Below are positions 25,998 to 51,146 of a stretch of DNA of 64,000 bases, one piece after another. Within the stretch, counting starts at the first letter, position 1. Every line of letters begins with the position of its first letter. Made by a program: the position numbers and the translations under genes. The stretch is from Gulosibacter macacae. Its GTDB lineage: Bacteria; Actinomycetota; Actinomycetes; Actinomycetales; Microbacteriaceae. The notes below the pieces were generated by a model, which saw only the letters and a list, made by a program, of their open reading frames with translations, had not been told where the DNA came from and ran no database searches. The stretch is from the NCBI RefSeq assembly GCF_003865375.1, contig NZ_RQVS01000006.1, positions 1 through 64,000 of the forward strand, read 5' to 3'.

Positions 25998-26008
25998 TGG
26001 GTCGGCCC

Positions 26009-26078
26009 GCAAGTGACCCTCTCGTGGTCAAGTGACCCACCCATGGGTGGGGGAGTTTGCCACGAGAGGGTCACTTGC
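26009..26078. repeat. CCCACCCATGGGTGGG-family palindromic repeat, copy A
   Basis: The outer arms form a perfect 19-bp inverted repeat (26009-26027 with 26060-26078, left arm GCAAGTGACCCTCTCGTGG). The centre carries the 16-bp palindrome CCCACCCATGGGTGGG at 26036-26051. It lies between the converging SIP and selB genes and contains the selB stop codon (26071-26073). Related copies lie at 29512-29560 and 36453-36515. Confidence 0.85.
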
Positions 26079-27876
26079 GACGGTGCGCGACCACCTCGCG
26101 GCGGGAGGCATCGATGCGGCGGGTGAGGCCGCGCTGGTCGAGTAATTCGAGGAGCGGCACGGCCACACGTCTGGTGGTGCCGAGCGCCTGCCGCGCCTCG
26201 CTCAGCGTGAATGGTTGCGGCAGGGTCGCCAGGATGCTCGCCGCTCGGGCAGGTGCCGAAGGCAGGAGCACGAGTCCCTCATCAATGCGCAAGAGTCGCC
26301 CGACTCGTTCGGCGGCAGCGAGTTCCTTCGCGCCGAGCCGGAGCGCCTTGAGGTCGTCGGCCTCGGGTGCGAGGAACGGCTTGGTGGCAAGCGTCGCCTC
26401 GAGCTTCGCGATACTCGCTTCGGCCGGGCCGAGATCGGCCTTCTGTCCAGGCACACGGATGCGGCCAGCCTCGGCCTCGAGGCGCGCGAGCTTCACGACG
26501 GCGCCAAGGAGTGCCGCATCCGGCAGCTTGAGTGCGTCGATCGCGGCATCTCGCGTGAGGCCGGGCGACAGAGCATCGCGCTTGGCATCGGCAGCAACCG
26601 CCGCACGCAATCGCTGTGCCCACTCGGTGAACTGCGGTTTCGTGACAAGCCAGGGCCCCATGCGGATGAGGTCACCCGCCGCCGCTTCGGGCAGGGCAAT
26701 GCCGAGCTGCTCCAAATGCGACGCGAGCATGGCGCCGCGCCGGGACACCTCAACCTCAGCCGAGCCCATTGGCGACATCGTCGCAAGCACGTCGGCACGC
26801 TTCGCGCCCGACCCACGACGTCGCAGCTGCGGCGGATCGACATCGAGCAATTGCACGCCGCCCATCACCGAGTGACTCCCCGGGTCGCGCAACACCATGC
26901 GATCGCCCACCCGCAATGGCAGCTCGCGACTCAGCTGCAATCGCGCGTGATCGGCACCAAATGGCCGCACGACCGCGGGCACGGCGGCGGTGCCCACATG
27001 CACCACGATCTCGCGCGGCACCTCGTCGAGGGCGAGCCCGCTCACGCGCCGCGCATCCACGAGCGAGGTCTGCCACCACGCACCGGGCGTGACGAGTGCA
27101 TCGCCGCGCTGCACGGCATCCACCGACACCCCGCGCAAGTTGAGTGCGACGCGACTCACCCCGGCGACGTGGTCGACGCTCGCACCGCGCGATTGCACAC
27201 TCCGTACCTCGACGCGGTCGGTGCGCTGCGCACCAGCCACAGCAAACGCATCCCCGCGGGCGACGGCGCCATCGGCGAGGGTGCCGGTGACGACGGTGCC
27301 GGCACCAGAGATCGAGAACGACCGGTCGATCCACAGGCGCATCGGGGCATCGGGATGCGGCGGGGGCACGGTCGCGAGGGCGGTGTCGAGAGCTTGGCGC
27401 AGCGCATCCAGCCCCTCGCCGGTGCGCGCGGAGACGGGCACAATCGTGGCGTTCGCCAGCTCGGTGGCGGCGAGGCGATCACGCACTTCGGCAGTGACTC
27501 CAGCGACCCCATCCGGTGCGAGGTCGATGCGCGTGAGTGCGACGACGCCGTGGCGAATGCCGAGTGACGCGGCCGCGGCGAGGTGGTCGGTTGATTGTTG
27601 TTGCCAGCCCTGATCGGCGGCGACGACGAAGAGCACGACCGGAGCCGGACCGAGGCCCGCGAGCATATTGCCGAGAAAGCGCTCGTGACCGGGTACATCG
27701 ACAAAGGCGACCTCGCGCCCCGAGGGGAGTTCGGTCCAGGCGAAGCCGAGGTCGATGGTGAGGCCGCGCCGCTGCTCTTCGGCCCAGCGATCGGGTTCGA
27801 TGCCGGTGAGCGCGCGCACGAGGGTCGATTTGCCGTGGTCGACGTGACCCGAGGTAGCGATGACGAAGCTGGTCAT
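26071..27876 (-). CDS. selB: Selenocysteine-specific translation elongation factor SelB
   Basis: A 601-residue GTPase. It begins MTSFVIATSGHVDHGKSTL (G1), with DVPGHE (G3) and the downstream beta-barrel domains of an EF-Tu-like factor, then winged-helix repeats at the C-terminus (about 400-601) that recognise the SECIS hairpin. It delivers Sec-tRNA(Sec) to in-frame UGA codons. I start at ATG 27876, overlapping the selA stop (ATGA); an earlier in-frame ATG at 27948 would add a non-conserved Arg-rich leader. The last residues are encoded inside repeat copy A. Confidence 0.94.
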   Translation of the reverse strand: MTSFVIATSGHVDHGKSTLVRALTGIEPDRWAEEQRRGLTIDLGFAWTELPSGREVAFVDVPGHERFLGNMLAGLGPAPVVLFVVAADQGWQQQSTDHLAAAASLGIRHGVVALTRIDLAPDGVAGVTAEVRDRLAATELANATIVPVSARTGEGLDALRQALDTALATVPPPHPDAPMRLWIDRSFSISGAGTVVTGTLADGAVARGDAFAVAGAQRTDRVEVRSVQSRGASVDHVAGVSRVALNLRGVSVDAVQRGDALVTPGAWWQTSLVDARRVSGLALDEVPREIVVHVGTAAVPAVVRPFGADHARLQLSRELPLRVGDRMVLRDPGSHSVMGGVQLLDVDPPQLRRRGSGAKRADVLATMSPMGSAEVEVSRRGAMLASHLEQLGIALPEAAAGDLIRMGPWLVTKPQFTEWAQRLRAAVAADAKRDALSPGLTRDAAIDALKLPDAALLGAVVKLARLEAEAGRIRVPGQKADLGPAEASIAKLEATLATKPFLAPEADDLKALRLGAKELAAAERVGRLLRIDEGLVLLPSAPARAASILATLPQPFTLSEARQALGTTRRVAVPLLELLDQRGLTRRIDASRREVVAHRRK

Positions 27877-29476: not shown

Positions 29477-29511
29477 ATGCCGATGCAATCTACCACCGCC
29501 ACGGAAGTGGC

Positions 29512-29560
29512 CCTCTCGTGGCGTAGTTCCCCACCCATGGGTGGGGAACTACGCCATGAC
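29512..29560. repeat. CCCACCCATGGGTGGG-family palindromic repeat, copy B
   Basis: A 36-base perfect palindrome spans 29520-29555 (left arm GGCGTAGTTCCCCACCCA). It is flanked by CCCTCTCGTGG on the left and ATGACGCCCACC on the right, flanks shared with copy C. It lies between tRNA-Sec and selD, i.e. in the divergent region of the selenium genes. Confidence 0.85.
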
Positions 29561-29753
29561 GCCCACCATTGGAATCGCGGCTCCACAACTGCGAGCCAGA
29601 TACGCAATTACCGCGCAACCCTGAGCCTTCACGCCATCCCCGAGCCGTGCATCGCTCAGGTTTGGCGTGATGGCTCCCAAGACGGCTCAGGTTTGGCATG
29701 AAGGCGCACCCTCGACCGGCGCCCCCAAACACGCCCCGCCTAGACTCGCCCAC

Positions 29754-36392: not shown

Positions 36393-36452
36393 GGGAGGGA
36401 GTTTATCGCAGTGCCACCGGTGCTCGCTGAGCCATGGTGCCGCCACGCCGTG

Positions 36453-36515
36453 AGTGGCCCTCTCGTGGCGAAGTACCCCACGCATGGGTGGGGTAGAACG
36501 CCACGACGCCCACCC
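36453..36515. repeat. CCCACCCATGGGTGGG-family palindromic repeat, copy C
   Basis: A degenerate copy with centre CCCCACGCATGGGTGGGG (36477-36494) and outer GTGGCG (36465-36470) / CGCCAC (36499-36504). Flanks AGTGGCCCTCTCGTGGCG and GACGCCCACC match copy B. It lies between the divergent fdhA and azlC genes, so it may overlap their promoters. Confidence 0.78.
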
Positions 36516-36573
36516 TTGCGGGGCGCGCCACGCCCAACTTGGCGGCGCCGCGCGAGGGGAGCACAATGTCTGG

Positions 36574-44738: not shown

Positions 44739-45983
44739 ATGGCTGCCGAGAACCTTGGCCGCAAGGCCCCGCCCGCATCCGATGCCCCGCTCGCCGAGGG
44801 CGCCGTCGTTTCTGCCGCGACCGACGCGGTGAAGGACGGCGCGAAGTGGGCGAGTGCGCCCACTTCCTATGACGCAATTCTGCTCGCCTCATTCGGTGGC
44901 CCTGAGGGGCAGGATGACGTCATCCCGTTCCTCCGCAATGTCACCGCTGGCCGCGGCATCCCCGACGCTCGCCTCGAAGAGGTGGCGGTGCACTACCGCG
45001 CCCACGGCGGCGTGAGCCCGATCAACGAGCAAAACCGCGAACTGCTCGCGGCGCTTGAAGCCGAGATCGCCCGCCGCGGCATCAACCTGCCGGTCTATTG
45101 GGGCAACCGTAATTGGGGTCCCTATGTCGTGGATGCGGTGCACGCCGCCCACGAGGCTGGCGCCACAAAGCTGCTCGGCTTGGCGACGAGCGCCTACTCG
45201 TCGTACTCGTCGTGCCGCCAGTACCGCGAAGACTTCGCGGATGCGCTCGAGGCTTCGTCGCTGCAGGGGGTCGTCGAGATCGACAAGGTGCGCCCCTACT
45301 TCGATCACCCGGGCTTCGTCGAGCCCTTCGTCGAGGGACTCGTTGACGCGGTGCGCGATTTGGCTCAGGGCTCGGATGCCTTCGGTGCAGAAGACATCGA
45401 AGTGCTGTTCACCACGCACTCGGTGCCGATGAGCGATGCGGCGAAGTCGGGCCCGGCTGAACTTGGTTACGGCGAGGGCGGCGCGTACTTCGCGCAGCAC
45501 ATGGCCGTAAGCGAGGTCGTTATTGCGCAGGCACAGGAGCGGCTTGCTGAAGCCGGACTCGACCTGCCGTTGCACTGGCAGCTGGTCTTCCAATCGCGCT
45601 CTGGCCCGCCCTCACAACCCTGGCTCGAACCCGACATCAACGACGTCATTGAAGAGCTACCGGCAGCTGGCCGCCGCGCCGTCATCGTCGTGCCGATTGG
45701 CTTCGTGTCGGACCACATGGAAGTGCTCTGGGATCTCGACAACGAGGCGCGCGAATCGGCCGAAACCGCCGGACTCGCGTTCCGCCGCACCCCGACCCCG
45801 GGCGTGCATCCGGCCTATGTGGCTGGGCTGGTCGACCTGTTGCTTGAGCGCATCAACGGGGTACCCGCCGATGAGCGCGAGGCGTGCACCGACCTCGGCC
45901 CCGCGTTCGATGTCTGCCGCGCGGGTTGCTGCGAGAACGAGCGACTCGGCTTCCGGCCGGCGGTCGCCGGGCTCAAGCCGTGA
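44739..45983 (+). CDS. hemH: Ferrochelatase (coproporphyrin type)
   Basis: A 414-residue enzyme inserting Fe(II) into coproporphyrin III (CpfC). ILLASFGGPEG, the loop with YWGNRNWGPYV, FTTHSVP (His metal ligand) and VVPIGFVSDHMEVLWDLD are family motifs. The C-terminus has clustered Cys (ACTDLG and VCRAGCCENE, about residues 383-397), compatible with the [2Fe-2S] cluster of actinobacterial ferrochelatases. An Ala-rich N-terminal extension of about 40 residues precedes the catalytic domain. The stop overlaps the hemC start (GTGA). Confidence 0.94.
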   Translation: MAAENLGRKAPPASDAPLAEGAVVSAATDAVKDGAKWASAPTSYDAILLASFGGPEGQDDVIPFLRNVTAGRGIPDARLEEVAVHYRAHGGVSPINEQNRELLAALEAEIARRGINLPVYWGNRNWGPYVVDAVHAAHEAGATKLLGLATSAYSSYSSCRQYREDFADALEASSLQGVVEIDKVRPYFDHPGFVEPFVEGLVDAVRDLAQGSDAFGAEDIEVLFTTHSVPMSDAAKSGPAELGYGEGGAYFAQHMAVSEVVIAQAQERLAEAGLDLPLHWQLVFQSRSGPPSQPWLEPDINDVIEELPAAGRRAVIVVPIGFVSDHMEVLWDLDNEARESAETAGLAFRRTPTPGVHPAYVAGLVDLLLERINGVPADEREACTDLGPAFDVCRAGCCENERLGFRPAVAGLKP

Positions 45984-47044
45984 CCGCCGAGACTCGCGAG
46001 CTGATCGGCGCGGCAGGTTCGTTGCCGATCGTGCGCGTCGGCACTCGCGGCTCAAAGCTCGCCGTCGCGCAAACGCGACAGTTTGTCGAGCGCTTGGCCG
46101 CCGCATCCGGTCGTCAATTTGAGCTCGTGCGCGTGACGACGCACGGCGACGTCAACCGTGCGTCGCTGTCGACCCTCGGCGGTCAGGGCGTGTTTGCCAC
46201 CGAGTTGCGCGAGGCGCTGCGGGCGGGCGAGGTTGACCTCGCGGTGCACTCGCTCAAAGACCTCCCCACCGCACCCGCGCCCGGGCTGTCGCTAGTGGCG
46301 CATCCGGCTCGTGAAGATGCCCGCGATGCGCTCTGCGCGCGCGACGGGCTTACCTTTGCCGAGCTGCCGGAGGGTGCGCTCGTCGGCACCGGCTCGCCGC
46401 GTCGCATTGCGCAGCTGCGCCGGGTGCGACCCGACCTCGAGCTGCGTGATATTCGCGGCAATATCGACACGCGCCTCGGCTTCGTCGAGCACGGCGAACT
46501 GGATGCGGTGCTCCTCGCCTGTGCGGGCCTCGCCCGGCTTGGTCGCGAGGAGTCGGTAACCGATCGCTTTGGCCTGGACGAGTTTCCGACCGCGCCCGGG
46601 CAGGGTTCGCTCGCGATCGAGGCGCGCGAGGGCTGGGTGCTTGAGACGGTGACTGGTGGCGATGGGCTGGCCTTGGTCGATGACGCCGCGACCCGTGCGG
46701 CCGTGGACGCCGAGCGCGGCGTGCTCAACGGTCTCGACGCTGGCTGCTCGGCGCCGGTTGGCGTGCACGCGGTCGTTGACGGCGGCGTATTGCGCGTGCA
46801 CGCGCGGGTCTACGGGCCCGATCGCTTTGCCGAGGCGCACGGAGAAATCGAGATTGATCTCGGGACTGTGCGCGATGCATCCGTGGCGATCGCTGGCGGG
46901 ATGCGCGGCACGCGCGCGACCGGCCCGATGCCCGACCACGAACCGGATGCGGTGGTCGTTGGCGCGTACGCACCGGCCGTGCTCGCGGCGCAGCTGGTGA
47001 GTGAGCTCTTTGCGCAGGGTGCCGGTGAGTTCATCGTCGAGTGA
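45980..47044 (+). CDS. hemC: Hydroxymethylbilane synthase
   Basis: A 354-residue porphobilinogen deaminase. It begins with VRVGTRGSKLAVAQT; THGDVNR, AVHSLKDLPT, VGTGSPRR, LRDIRGNIDTRL and LDAGCSAPVGVHA follow. The Cys in the last motif (about residue 255) covalently binds the dipyrromethane cofactor. GTG 45980 overlaps the ferrochelatase stop. The frame is open further upstream inside hemH, but without conserved residues. Confidence 0.95.
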   Translation: MTAETRELIGAAGSLPIVRVGTRGSKLAVAQTRQFVERLAAASGRQFELVRVTTHGDVNRASLSTLGGQGVFATELREALRAGEVDLAVHSLKDLPTAPAPGLSLVAHPAREDARDALCARDGLTFAELPEGALVGTGSPRRIAQLRRVRPDLELRDIRGNIDTRLGFVEHGELDAVLLACAGLARLGREESVTDRFGLDEFPTAPGQGSLAIEAREGWVLETVTGGDGLALVDDAATRAAVDAERGVLNGLDAGCSAPVGVHAVVDGGVLRVHARVYGPDRFAEAHGEIEIDLGTVRDASVAIAGGMRGTRATGPMPDHEPDAVVVGAYAPAVLAAQLVSELFAQGAGEFIVE

Positions 47045-48311
47045 GGCTGACGAACTGGCCGAGGTGAATAGCTCAAGTGAGCTGACCGCGGCCACAGCGT
47101 CAGGAGATCGGGCGGCCGCGAGCGAGCCCAACGCCCAGGCCCAGGCGCTTGGTCGAGAACGCTTGCGCGGCGTGCGCGTGCTCGTGCCGCGCGGTGGGGC
47201 GCACGGCGAGAAGATGGCGGCCGAGGTCGCCGCGTTCGGCGCTGAGCCGGTGATTGTGCCGATGATCGATTTCGCGCCGGTCGTGGGCGACGAGGCTGTT
47301 GAGTTGCGGGCGCGGCTCGCTGCGCTCGCGGCGGGGGAGTATGACTGGCTCGCCGTGACGAGCCCGCGCAATGTCGAGATGCTGGTGCACGCGCTCGGCG
47401 CATCCGCTGCGGCGGGCGGTGACGGTGCCGGCGCCGACACGCGTGCCGACACCCACGCCGAGGCGAACCCCGGGCTACTAATCCGCGCGCTCCCGCCTAA
47501 TCCGCGCGCTGCAACGCGCGGATTAGGCGGCAACGAGCGGTTTAGTGATCGCGAGGCCGCCGAAGCGTCACCCGGTGGCGTGACCGCCGGCGCACCCGCC
47601 GCCGCCGACGCCGTGAACCCCGTGCCGCTAATACGCGCGCTCCCGACTAATGCGCCCGCTGCAGCGCGCGGTTTAGGCGGCAACGAGCGTATTAGTGAAC
47701 TCGAGATCGCTGCCGCCAGTGCACCATGCGTCGGCAGCGACGCCCGCACGCGCCTCGCCGACGCGATCCCGGCGAACACGCGCGTCGCCGCCGTCGGCAC
47801 CGGCACGGCGAAGGCGCTCGCGCGCCACGGCGTCACCGCCGACTTCGTGCCCGCTGGCGAACAATCCGCACGCGGCATGATCCAGGAGTGGCCGGAACCG
47901 GGCGCCCGAGTGCTCTGGCCGCACTCCTCGGCCGCCCGCCACACGATTCCGCTCGGCGTGAAGCTGCGCGGAGGCAAGGTCGATGCGCCCATTGCCTACC
48001 ACCCAGCCTCAGCACCGCTCAGCGACGACCACCTGGCAGATCTGCGAGCGGGCCGCATCCCAATTGCCCTCGTGACAAGCGGCATGATCGCGCGCGAACT
48101 TGCACATCGCCTCGACGGCGTGCGCATGCCCGTCGTGTCGATCGGACCCATCACGACCGAGGATGCACGGGAGGTCGGCCTCCCCGTCGTGGCCGAGGCC
48201 GCCGAGCCGAGCATCGCCGCGATGCTCAACGCACTCGCGAAGGCAGCAGCGAAGCCCGACCTCGCATCCGCCCTTCCCGATCTTGCGGCGGCACTCGGTC
48301 GACGCGAGTAG
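47001..48311 (+). CDS. hemD: Uroporphyrinogen-III synthase with repeat-encoded insertion
   Basis: Up to 436 residues, whereas HemD proteins are usually about 250-270. The N-terminal synthase part (about 56-130: [15 protein letters not shown], then [16 protein letters not shown]) and the C-terminal part (about 245-436: [32 protein letters not shown]) are separated by about 100 extra residues. This insert contains two in-frame copies of a 68-bp palindrome, encoding [18 protein letters not shown] and [18 protein letters not shown]. The frame stays open, so the enzyme is probably functional with a surface loop. The start is uncertain: GTG 47001, 47025 or 47064. It overlaps hemC. Confidence 0.85.
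47478..47545. repeat. 68-bp palindromic element in hemD, copy H1
   Basis: Starts CTAATCCGCGCGCT and ends AGCGGTTTAG. The inner stem is a perfect 16-bp inverted repeat (CCGCCTAATCCGCGCG, 47493-47508, with 47515-47530) around a 6-base loop. It lies within the hemD coding frame and encodes about 23 residues there. Confidence 0.9.
47628..47695. repeat. 68-bp palindromic element in hemD, copy H2
   Basis: Starts CTAATACGCGCGCT and ends GAGCGTATTAG, exactly 150 bases (50 codons) after copy H1 and therefore in the same reading frame. The inner stem is less perfect than in H1. The sequences just before H1 and H2 also resemble each other (GCCGAC...GAACCCCG), so the pair may come from a tandem duplication of a 150-base unit. 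Confidence 0.88.
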
Positions 48312-48381
48312 CGTCAGGCCTAGCAATCAGGGCCGTGCGCCCACCAGTTCTCTCACCGACCGTCCTAGTGGAGGAAGTCCC

Positions 48382-49359
48382 ATGTTGCGTCCAGTGATCC
48401 GTCCCCGTCGCCTGCGTCAATCGCCCGCCATGCGCGCGCAGACGCGCGAGCTGCGGGTGCATCCGAGCGAGCTCGTCCTGCCCGTGTTCGTGCGCGAAGG
48501 CCTCAACGCCCCGCAGGAAATCACGTCGCTACCGGGCATTCAGCAGCACACGCTCGACTCGCTGCGCGGCGTCGTGGCCGAGGCGGCCGAGGCGGGCGTT
48601 GGCGGCATCATGCTCTTCGGCGTGCCCGAAGAACGGGATGCGATTGGCTCGGGAGCGACCGACCCCGAAGGCATCCTCAACCAGGCGATTTCAGCGGTTG
48701 CCGCGGAAGCGGGCGGCGCGCTCACCGTGCAGGCCGACCTCTGCCTTGACGAATTCACCGACCACGGCCACTGCGGTGTCGTCGACGAGCGCGGTCGCGT
48801 CGACAATGATGCGACCCTGCAGCGCTATGCCGAAATGGCCGTCGTGCAGGCCGAAGCCGGTGCCGAGATCATCGGCATGTCGGGCATGATGGACGGTCAA
48901 ATCGCCGTCGCTCGCGAAGCGCTCGACGCCGCCGGGCACGAGGATGCGGTGCTCCTCGCCTACTCAGCGAAGTACGCATCCGCGTTCTACGGACCCTTCC
49001 GCGAGGCGGTTGATTCGCAGTTGCAGGGCGATCGGCGCACCTACCAGATGGATCCGGCCAACCGACGCGAGGGACTGCGCGAGGCGCTGCTCGACGTGGA
49101 AGAGGGCGCCGACATCGTCATGGTGAAGCCGGCGATGAGCTACCTCGATGTGCTCGCGGATGTGTCGGCCGAGTCGATCGTGCCGGTTTGGGCCTACCAG
49201 GTGTCGGGCGAGTACGCGATGATCGTCGCCGCCGCGCAGCACGGCTGGATCGACCGCGCCGGAGCTGTGGCCGAGTCGATCGTGTCGATTCGCCGGGCCG
49301 GGGCGGATGCGGTGCTCACCTACTTCGCGGTGGAGTACGCCCGGGCGTTGCGCGCGTAG
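48382..49359 (+). CDS. hemB: Delta-aminolevulinic acid dehydratase (porphobilinogen synthase)
   Basis: A 325-residue enzyme condensing two 5-aminolevulinate molecules. Catalytic lysines are in [13 protein letters not shown] and [13 protein letters not shown]. The metal-binding stretch reads [14 protein letters not shown]: two Cys of the usual zinc triad are kept and the middle one is Asp. ATG 48382 is preceded by GAGGAAG; the open frame runs 94 codons further back, inside hemD. It lies 70 bases after hemD. Confidence 0.95.
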
Positions 49360-49784
49360 CGTGCCCCGCGTGCCGTGGTCCGCGTAGCGCGCTAACGCAC
49401 GCGCAATGCGCGTCGAGTCCTCATCGCATGGGTGGTGGCTCACGTTAGGTGCCGCTGACTGGTGCGCTACGGATCTCGGCGCGCGGCCTCCGGCGGATTC
49501 CGCATGCTCCTATCCCACTAATACGCGCGCTTCCGACTAATACGCGCGCTGCAGCGGGCGTATTAGTCGGAAGCGCGCGGATTAGGACTCGTCCGGCTGG
49601 CGGTCGGCCTCAGCGTGCGAGCGGCCGGGCGCGGCGGACGAGGTGAGGTCAAAGCGCGCGGGGTGAGGTCGAAGCGCGCCAGAGGTGCGGCCGATGCAAC
49701 ATGCTGACCCCGCCACCTCGCAACGCACTCACGACACCGGCCTACGATGGAGAGTCCTGCATCCGTGTCTTGAGGAGCCACGCC
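49360..49784. other. Intergenic region between hemB and hemL with palindromic and tandem repeats
   Basis: No credible gene. It contains the 68-bp palindrome copy H3 (49518-49585) and a two-unit 20-bp tandem repeat (GGTGAGGTCAAAGCGCGC at 49642-49659, repeated with one change at 49662-49679). The last ~80 bases must carry the hemL promoter if it is not transcribed from hemB. Confidence 0.6.
49518..49585. repeat. 68-bp palindromic element, intergenic copy H3
   Basis: The most symmetrical copy: the left 34 bases are complementary to the right 34 at 32 positions. Each arm carries two direct copies of CTAATACGCGCGCT, 19 bases apart. Length and layout equal those of H1 and H2 in hemD. Confidence 0.9.
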
Positions 49785-51146
49785 ATGACCACTTCTGCCG
49801 ACTGGTTCGACCGCGCCCGCGCTGTAACTCCGGGTGGGGTGAACTCGCCCGTGCGTGCGTTCGGCTCAGTGGGCGGCACCCCGACCTTCACGGCCGAGGC
49901 TGACGGAGCCTGGATCACCGATGTTGACGGGAACCGCCGCGTCGACCTCATCTGCGGCTGGGGTCCCCTGCTACTTGGCCACTCGCATCCTGAGGTCGTG
50001 GCGGCCGTGCAAGACACCGCAGCCAAGATGATGTGCCCGGGTGGCTCGACCCCCGGTGAAGTTGAGCTCGCCGAAGCCATCGTGAAGCGCCTCGAGGGTT
50101 CGGGCGTTGATGAGGTGCGCCTCGTCTCGACCGGCACTGAGGCGACCATGACTGCAATCCGCCTCGCTCGCGGCGCAACTGGCCGCGACCTCATCGTGAA
50201 GTTCGCCGGCTGCTACCACGGCCACTCCGACGGCCTGCTCGCAGCCGCCGGCTCGGGCCTCGCCACCCTTGCGCTGCCGGGGTCTGCCGGTGTGCCCGAA
50301 GCCATCACCGCGCAGACCATCGTCGTGCCCTACAACGACCTCGACGCCGTGCGCGCCGCGTTCGCCGAGCATGAGGGCCGCATCGCCGCGGTCATCACCG
50401 AAGCGAGCCCCGCGAACATGGGTGTCGTGCCCCCGGCACCGGGCTTCAACCGCGACCTCGCGGCGATCTGCCACGACAACGGTGCGCTCCTCATTTGCGA
50501 TGAGGTGCTCACCGGTTTCCGCACGGGACCTGCCGGCTGGTGGGGCCGCGAGCAGGAAGACCCCGAGCGTGGTGGCTGGCAGGCCGATATCTACACCTTC
50601 GGCAAGGTCATCGGTGGCGGGATGCCCGTCGCCGGTCTCGGGGCCCGCCGCGAAATCATGGACCACCTCGCACCCCTCGGCGCCGTCTACCAAGCAGGCA
50701 CGCTGAGCGGCAACCCGGTGGCCGTCGCCGCCGGTATCGCGACGCTGCGCCTCGCGACCGATGAGGTCTACGCGACGATTGATGCCGCATCCGACCGCAT
50801 CATTGCCGCAGCCCGACGCGAGTTTGCGCGCGTTGGACTGCCGGTGGCCGTACAGCGCGTGCGCAACCTCTTCTCGTTTGCTTTCGGTGACGGCGAGGCG
50901 CTCGGCTGGACGGGTCGCGACGAATTCGGCGTGAGCGCTCCGACGAACGAGGATGAGGTCAAGCGTCAGGAATCGTGGCGCTACCCGGCCTTCTTCCACG
51001 CCATGCTCGACGCAGGCGTGAACCTGCCGCCGAGTGTCTTCGAGGCGTGGTTCCTCTCATCGGCACACGACGAGGATGCGCTCGCGGCAATCGAAGCTGC
51101 ACTCCCGGCGGCTGCCGATGCGGCCGCCGCGGTGACGCGCCCGTAA
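49785..51146 (+). CDS. hemL: Glutamate-1-semialdehyde 2,1-aminomutase
   Basis: A 453-residue PLP enzyme forming 5-aminolevulinate from the HemA product. Motifs: PGGVNSPVRAFG, DGNRRVDLICGWGPLLLGHSHP, STGTEATMTAIRLARGATGRD, KFAGCYHGHSD, LLICDEVLTGFR, and the PLP lysine in TFGKVIGGGMPVAG. ATG 49785 follows GAGGAG. It closes the plus-strand heme cluster; with hemA it makes the C5 entry route complete. Confidence 0.96.
   Translation: MTTSADWFDRARAVTPGGVNSPVRAFGSVGGTPTFTAEADGAWITDVDGNRRVDLICGWGPLLLGHSHPEVVAAVQDTAAKMMCPGGSTPGEVELAEAIVKRLEGSGVDEVRLVSTGTEATMTAIRLARGATGRDLIVKFAGCYHGHSDGLLAAAGSGLATLALPGSAGVPEAITAQTIVVPYNDLDAVRAAFAEHEGRIAAVITEASPANMGVVPPAPGFNRDLAAICHDNGALLICDEVLTGFRTGPAGWWGREQEDPERGGWQADIYTFGKVIGGGMPVAGLGARREIMDHLAPLGAVYQAGTLSGNPVAVAAGIATLRLATDEVYATIDAASDRIIAAARREFARVGLPVAVQRVRNLFSFAFGDGEALGWTGRDEFGVSAPTNEDEVKRQESWRYPAFFHAMLDAGVNLPPSVFEAWFLSSAHDEDALAAIEAALPAAADAAAAVTRP

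Follow-up and report, generated by a model that had tools for sequence, protein, structure and literature searches.

The window, the whole 64,000-nucleotide stretch of Gulosibacter macacae DNA that we analysed, carries the genes hemC, hemD, hemB and hemL and, among them, three copies of one 68-bp palindrome family, which we call F1. A preliminary description, made from the letters alone, had placed two of these copies (H1 and H2) in the open frame of hemD and assigned them to the same family as the intergenic copy H3; its coordinates, the frame and the 150-base spacing of H1 and H2 proved exact. The features of the locus are as follows.

45980 to 47044, + strand: hemC, upstream neighbour of hemD
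47001 to 48311, + strand: hemD open reading frame, 436 aa from the GTG at 47001 (start perhaps 47025 or later), uroporphyrinogen-III synthase, PF02602
47385 to 47762, + strand: HemD insert region, query residues 102-227, absent in relatives, predicted to be disordered
47446 to 47595, + strand: 150-bp unit 1, H1 with its flanks, edges approximate
47478 to 47545, + strand: H1, F1 palindrome with a 68-bp core (72 bp counting the conserved ends, C-R and Y-G) and subfamily C at each of its four unit sites
47596 to 47745, + strand: 150-bp unit 2, H2 with its flanks, edges approximate
47628 to 47695, + strand: H2, F1 palindrome of mixed subfamily (A,G,C,A)
48382 to 49359, + strand: hemB, downstream neighbour of hemD
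49518 to 49585, + strand: H3, F1 palindrome in the hemB-hemL gap
49785 to 51146, + strand: hemL

The arms of H1 are 86% complementary and those of H2 79%. As RNA, H1 is predicted to fold at -46.3 kcal/mol (z -6.6), H2 at -30.5 kcal/mol (z -2.3, matched by 3 of 200 shuffles) and H3 at -55.6 kcal/mol (z -12.5). An Rfam search of positions 47300-49700 gave four matches to miRNA families, all far under the gathering score, which we took as chance.

The HemD insert

The hemD product matches PF02602 with an E value of 6.9e-40, and the NCBIfam HemD models stay under their cut-off both for this protein and for the HemD of Gulosibacter chungangensis (the protein of strain KCTC 13959 is 100% identical to that of our congener G002). 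H1 and H2 encode the similar peptides quoted in the preliminary description, a likeness that stems from the DNA: every F1 copy (32 of 32) leaves exactly one frame open on each strand. An opposite-strand open reading frame across hemD (46292-47992) had no Pfam match and was rejected as a coding candidate.

At the site of the palindromes, HemD has a loop of 142 residues, compared with 19-21 in relatives, an insert of about 121-123 residues for which the two 68-bp palindromes account for only about 45. Congener HemD proteins align over the site without the insert. Across 80 family genomes HemD was matched in 76, 75 of them besides our own, and 74 of these 75 proteins span the site in one piece without an insert; the remaining match (G039) starts past it. 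The loop is also short in all 80 named loci, the best 80 of 509 and thus biased towards ungapped relatives (77 by script; L115, L118 and L174 by eye). The alignment with relatives that the preliminary description had proposed thus found no long linker in the congeners, in 74 of 75 family genomes or in those best 80 loci.

An AlphaFold2 model of HemD scored at least 90 at 231 of 389 residues, with the core blocks mostly above 90, and all 13 Foldseek matches with E of 0.001 or less were HemD structures. Residues 94-115 and 117-197 of the insert scored below 50 and are bracketed by two helices of a single domain, 75-91 and 199-208. The insert is thus probably a disordered, floppy surface loop. 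The preliminary description had HemD enlarged by about 100 residues between its two domains; the insert is somewhat larger than that, and in the predicted structure it lies inside one alpha/beta domain and not between the two. This is probably the second domain, judged by general HemD topology, with profile alignments to PDB structures as the sole help.

The F1 family in the genome and its relatives

The host genome (2.82 Mb in 37 contigs, the window being bases 1-64000 of contig C34) yielded 31 F1 places including H1 in a BLAST-type search combined with a local scan. With a covariance model built from these 31 places, and 150 candidates scored in each of 11 genomes, 32 copies in the host genome scored no lower than 73 bits; they are spread over 10 contigs, on which ground chance or an assembly artefact was rejected. 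Below them stand two degenerate places at 31.6 and 26 bits. A genome-wide count, also proposed at the outset, thus returned 32 copies and not three, two of them in an open reading frame, and the idea of a palindrome tolerated in frame within a conserved gene held up.

All 32 copies are 68 bp long, with no indels in 68 columns (31 aligned; the 32nd is 68 bp by the covariance model). Four 14-bp units near CTAATMCGCNCGYT, two of them direct and 19 bp apart and two inverted, make up each copy, which is a hairpin without a loop, and the consensus ends read CRCTAAT...ATTAGYG. Because two bases beyond each end are conserved, 54 of the 64 ends having C at -2 and 57 a purine at -1, the element may be 72 bp rather than 68. 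No copy (0 of 32) is flanked by a target duplication of at least 3 bases, whether its bounds are set at 68 or at 72 bp. In three copies (C5:83430, C34:139261 and C35:51343, in loci L028, L023 and L026), one further unit lies 32 bp upstream and the spacer contains GCATCC.

According to the approximate calls of a simple gene finder that had the window as its training set, 30 of the 32 copies lie between genes (17 between convergent, 11 between tandem and 2 between divergent ones) and two are coding, both in hemD; 28 of the 30 lie downstream of at least one gene. Among gaps of at least 30 bases, 16 of 28 with a copy were convergent compared with 10 of 78 without (Fisher p 1e-5), both sets being taken from regions around copies and the copy-bearing gaps being longer. 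Pfam matched 49 of the 53 flanking proteins scanned, and the last of the 54 flanking genes, hemC, has an NCBIfam match; the Pfam families were varied, with no functional theme by eye. The copy at C7:18840 overlaps the gene predicted upstream of it, which Pfam assigns to the Na+/H+ antiporters, and provides the stop codon of that gene.

The hexamer GCATCC points at F1 from within 25 bases at 13 of 64 ends (10 copies), against about 2.6 expected, and in the opposite direction at none. The GGATGC/GCATCC pair occurs 194 times in the window, compared with 61 expected from dinucleotides and 130 from a higher-order model. It is above expectation in congener loci as well (122 versus 37) and in 79 family loci pooled (857 versus 379), and not above expectation in two Clavibacter loci.

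F1 was found in none of the 10 congener genomes, and a genus-wide family was rejected: with 150 candidates scored per genome, nothing exceeded 25 bits, and the weak matches of 17-25 bits look by eye like unrelated hairpins. One palindrome of congener G007 was rejected as a family, with one locus each in G007 and G006. A search of other Microbacteriaceae with H3, scoring at most two candidates per genome, found F1 in none of 397 genomes (congeners included), and it showed just two copies in the host genome. H3 had no match in a plasmid collection, and H1 none in a phage collection; the single IMG/VR match to a half-element pattern was non-palindromic by eye and was set aside. The exact 27-base invariant pattern, which diverged relatives would escape, matched nothing among GTDB species contigs, a set from which the host species is possibly absent. 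Among the papers listed in our literature searches, mostly those outside subscription, we found no description of such palindromic elements in Gulosibacter, Microbacteriaceae or Actinobacteria.

Across the 32 copies, 27 of 68 columns are invariant (22 with both strands pooled), compared with 1.3 expected if changes fell evenly; since that model ignores common descent, the figure indicates uneven change and not, by itself, selection. The invariant columns may nevertheless reflect selection in place rather than recent spread. Variable columns recur at unit positions 6, 10 and 13, the others being invariant. At four linked sites (columns 6, 25, 44 and 63), 27 of the 32 copies carry the same type throughout, 19 CCCC and 8 AAAA, and five are mixed, as expected from the copying of masters.

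The arms also vary together. In 31 copies, mirror columns pair in 89.8% of cells, compared with 84.5% in shuffles and 30-45% in slid controls; there are 57 double-change cells against 27.5, and the covariation score is 0.164 against 0.083, neither value being reached in 500 shuffles. Two sterner counts stayed near the shuffles: 11 double-change pairs versus 9.6 (reached by 105 of 500) and 25 further pair types versus 23.1 (98 of 500). Within the CCCC subfamily the observed symmetry was reached by none of 2000 shuffles, and in the eight AAAA copies it was not unusual (292 of 2000, or 214 of 2000 with random turning). Copying from two masters, hairpin selection and arm-to-arm template switching, which makes hairpin arms match through double changes (PMC8794818, like the other papers cited here available as a partial text), could each contribute.

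Further families and known repeat systems

The window holds two further kinds of palindrome, F2 and F3.

26008 to 26079, + strand: F2 palindrome, 72 bp, in a convergent gap
29502 to 29573, + strand: F2 palindrome, 72 bp, in a divergent gap
29620 to 29691, + strand: F3 element, a diverged F1 relative with 22 of 36 arm pairs, adjoining an F2 copy
36449 to 36520, + strand: F2 palindrome, 72 bp, in a divergent gap

F2 has 26 copies in the genome, 72 bp long and gapless when centred, all of them intergenic by the same approximate gene finder (13 convergent, 8 tandem, 5 divergent). Its symmetry is below that of F1, averaging 26.4 of 36 pairs (range 20-32). A 20-base core, allowing up to three mismatches, occurs at 22 places in the host genome and at none in 10 congeners. 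F2 was rejected as a sequence relative of F1, their arms agreeing at the chance level of 13 of 36 bases. By eye, its outer arms seemingly take two forms, mixed between copies, and GGATGC/GCATCC points at F1 ends and not at F2 ends.

F3, with AAACCTGAGCCTTCCCGCC units, was uncovered through a weak F1 match at C12:73135 (other loci L223, L224, L229 and L230). It occupies up to six places in the host genome, one of them a 25-base piece at a contig end and two with E above 0.001, and none in 10 congeners; in five copies 21-24 of 36 arm positions pair. Its arm agrees with that of F1 at 23 of 36 bases (0 of 100,000 shuffles), a comparison that is not independent, F3 having been found via the F1 model. 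The best internal lag is 19 bp in all three arms (F1 14/17, F3 11/17 and, as a raw count, F2 9/17). One scan counted 6 long palindromes in the 64-kb window versus 6 in 439 kb of hem loci from 79 named relatives and 1 in 44 kb of 12 congener loci (two overlapping), the relatives' loci not being a random sample. In congener G001 the hemB-hemL gap, the one occupied by H3 in the window, contains an unrelated 65-bp palindrome (L037 3151-3215).

It is conceivable, and we put it forward tentatively, that the genome hosts an undescribed repeat class. Its members would be palindromes 72 bp long, built from four units that are spaced 19 bp apart within each arm, and would make up three or more families (32 F1 copies, 26 F2 and up to six F3). 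Neither a known transposase nor a target duplication would be involved in their spread, and their DNA would be under position-specific constraint, or re-copied, even inside the hemD frame.

F1 resembles the REP, BIME and REPIN elements of the available texts (PMC3733652, PMC3116915) in being a short, mostly intergenic palindrome with inverted pairs and a hairpin, in its preference for convergent and tandem gaps, in its occasional in-gene copies and in sharing its genome with other types. According to the part of PMC3733652 at hand, REPs inside genes (some double in one open reading frame), the same gap preference and several species-specific types per organism are known, as are in-gene palindromic repeats well beyond Rickettsia. 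The placement of F1, with 30 of 32 copies intergenic and 28 of those 30 downstream of a gene, is likewise that of a REP. However, F1 has neither a GTAG nor a CGTC end motif, consists of four units without a loop, and has 32 copies where REPs usually exceed 100 (PMC2817692, in part). A RAYT gene (Y1_Tnp, PF01797) was found in none of 11 genomes, the host included, and was detected in 5 of 14 control genomes; with no Y1_Tnp in its own genome, a RAYT-driven spread of F1 was rejected. MITEs are similar as short inverted-repeat elements of many copies that lack a transposase gene, but differ by the target duplication that 0 of 32 F1 copies show. In a search for an autonomous partner that used the 14-bp unit, with up to two mismatches, three isolated units among the matches listed, inspected over 190 bases, showed no second end.

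The tolerated palindromes had originally been likened to Rickettsia palindromic elements. These are about 150 bp long and often fused in frame, with nearly half in open reading frames in R. conorii (PMC10969869, partial text). F1 is like them in its in-frame insertion into a conserved gene, absent from relatives, and in encoding a similar peptide at each place. Only 2 of its 32 copies, in one gene, lie in an open reading frame, though, and 30 are intergenic, which sets F1 apart from the Rickettsia elements as that text describes them, and the likeness was not sustained. Because the REP end tag, the RAYT gene, the REP copy number and the Rickettsia share of in-frame copies are all missing, we filed F1 as a variant of interspersed palindromic repeats that is neither a REP nor a Rickettsia element. 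Quasi-palindrome correction by template switching would fit the mirror covariation, and would account for the upkeep of symmetry but not for spread.

Origin of the hemD pair

The exact spacing of H1 and H2 had suggested the duplication of a unit after one insertion. Their flanks agree at 32 of 47 bases, which no other pair among the 496 reaches (the mean is 17.2 with sd 2.9, and the runner-up has 30), and which exceeds all 2185 phase-matched windows (maximum 26). The 14-base arm GGCGGCAACGAGCG is present in H1 and H2 and in none of the 30 other copies on either strand. Because these flanks match best of all 496 pairs, the sequence supports a putative in-frame 150-bp duplication behind the pair, even though H1 and H2 belong to different subfamilies. 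The palindromes themselves agree at 60 of 68 bases, H1 being closer to the copy at C2:84842 (63 of 68), and the nearest matches of both are other F1 copies and not each other. None of the eight differences falls at a column invariant in the other 30 copies, and seven are within the 18 most variable of the 68 columns (p 2e-4). Judged by these columns, the pattern is that of two family members and not of random change after a duplication. A supposedly private H1/H2 base at column 54 was discarded, being present in 2 of the 30 other copies once orientation was made uniform.

These differences could also mean that H1 and H2 arose by two independent insertions into an already long linker, with no duplication. 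The contrast of CCCC in H1 with AGCA in H2, the restriction of their differences to family-variable columns, and the existence of other F1 doublets, 130 and 157 bp apart, whose flanks are not alike (no more than 19 of 47 bases), all fit such a history. It leaves unexplained, however, why the flanks of this pair match best of 496 and why its 14-base arm is in no other copy, and we regard it as possible but doubtful. A duplication with later copying from other members of the family would accommodate both the flanks and the differences, and so would constraint on the DNA. The H1 hairpin is weaker than those of 26 of the 30 intergenic copies and that of H2 is the weakest of all 32; two copies give only a hint that strong hairpins are worn down within a translated gene. 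In mitochondrial coding palindromes, arm identity decays over time (PMC6649704, as far as the available text goes).

We conclude that F1 is probably a REP/MITE-like non-autonomous repeat, one copy of which was captured in HemD and then duplicated there. F1 would spread through one genome by a mobiliser other than a Y1 (RAYT/IS200) transposase of its own genome and survive mainly at the 3' ends of genes. One copy would have landed in a HemD surface loop, in the sole stop-free phase of three, and an in-frame 150-bp duplication would then have doubled it. The ribosome would read through the palindromes to give a disordered loop, leaving the fold intact and the enzyme presumably active. This mobility is deduced from one genome of the species, in which neither a transposase partner nor an empty F1 site was found, the congeners being too distant for intergenic alignment. 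The case bears on two general problems, the spread of short palindromes in the absence of a transposase and the uptake of one by a protein that keeps its function. One genome offers a countable set of 58 copies in two families and a small third, with exact lengths and two marked subfamilies, and the single in-gene capture is a testable peptide and enzyme.

A role for F1 as host-selected 3' hairpins, either two-way terminators or stabilisers of mRNA 3' ends between convergent genes, would make the hemD pair an accident. Such a role could account for the prevalence of convergent over tandem and divergent gaps, for the invariant columns and for a mirror covariation that persists within the CCCC subfamily. 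Against it stand the two sterner covariation counts and the ordinary symmetry of the AAAA copies, the lack of a T tract in the single stretch with an F1 copy that was scanned, two copies inside a gene and 10 local convergent gaps that lack F1. Moreover, a purging of copies near promoters would give the same placement, which is reported for REPs in the accessible part of PMC3733652, and we consider a hairpin role unlikely. The recurrence of variable columns at the same unit positions, together with the 19-bp lag shared by three families, might instead point to the four 14-bp units as sites for a host DNA-binding protein, a chromosome organiser or regulator. The varied flanking genes, the scarcity of F1 in divergent, promoter-bearing gaps and the failure to find it in the congeners make this quite improbable.

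Ribosomes are known to hop across short inserts in mitochondria and in phage T4, and the predicted hairpins of -46 and -31 kcal/mol in hemD might be skipped in this way or excised from the RNA, so that the palindromes would remain untranslated. Yet the hemD frame runs through both copies without a stop, although two of the three phases are closed, and codon scores in the hemD frame are positive (coding) on either side of H1 and of H2, so we give hopping or excision very little credence. A HemD-family paralogue of 320 aa lies on contig C5 of the same genome, outside the hem cluster (L199 614-1576), and because of it a damaged hemD may be less costly to the cell.
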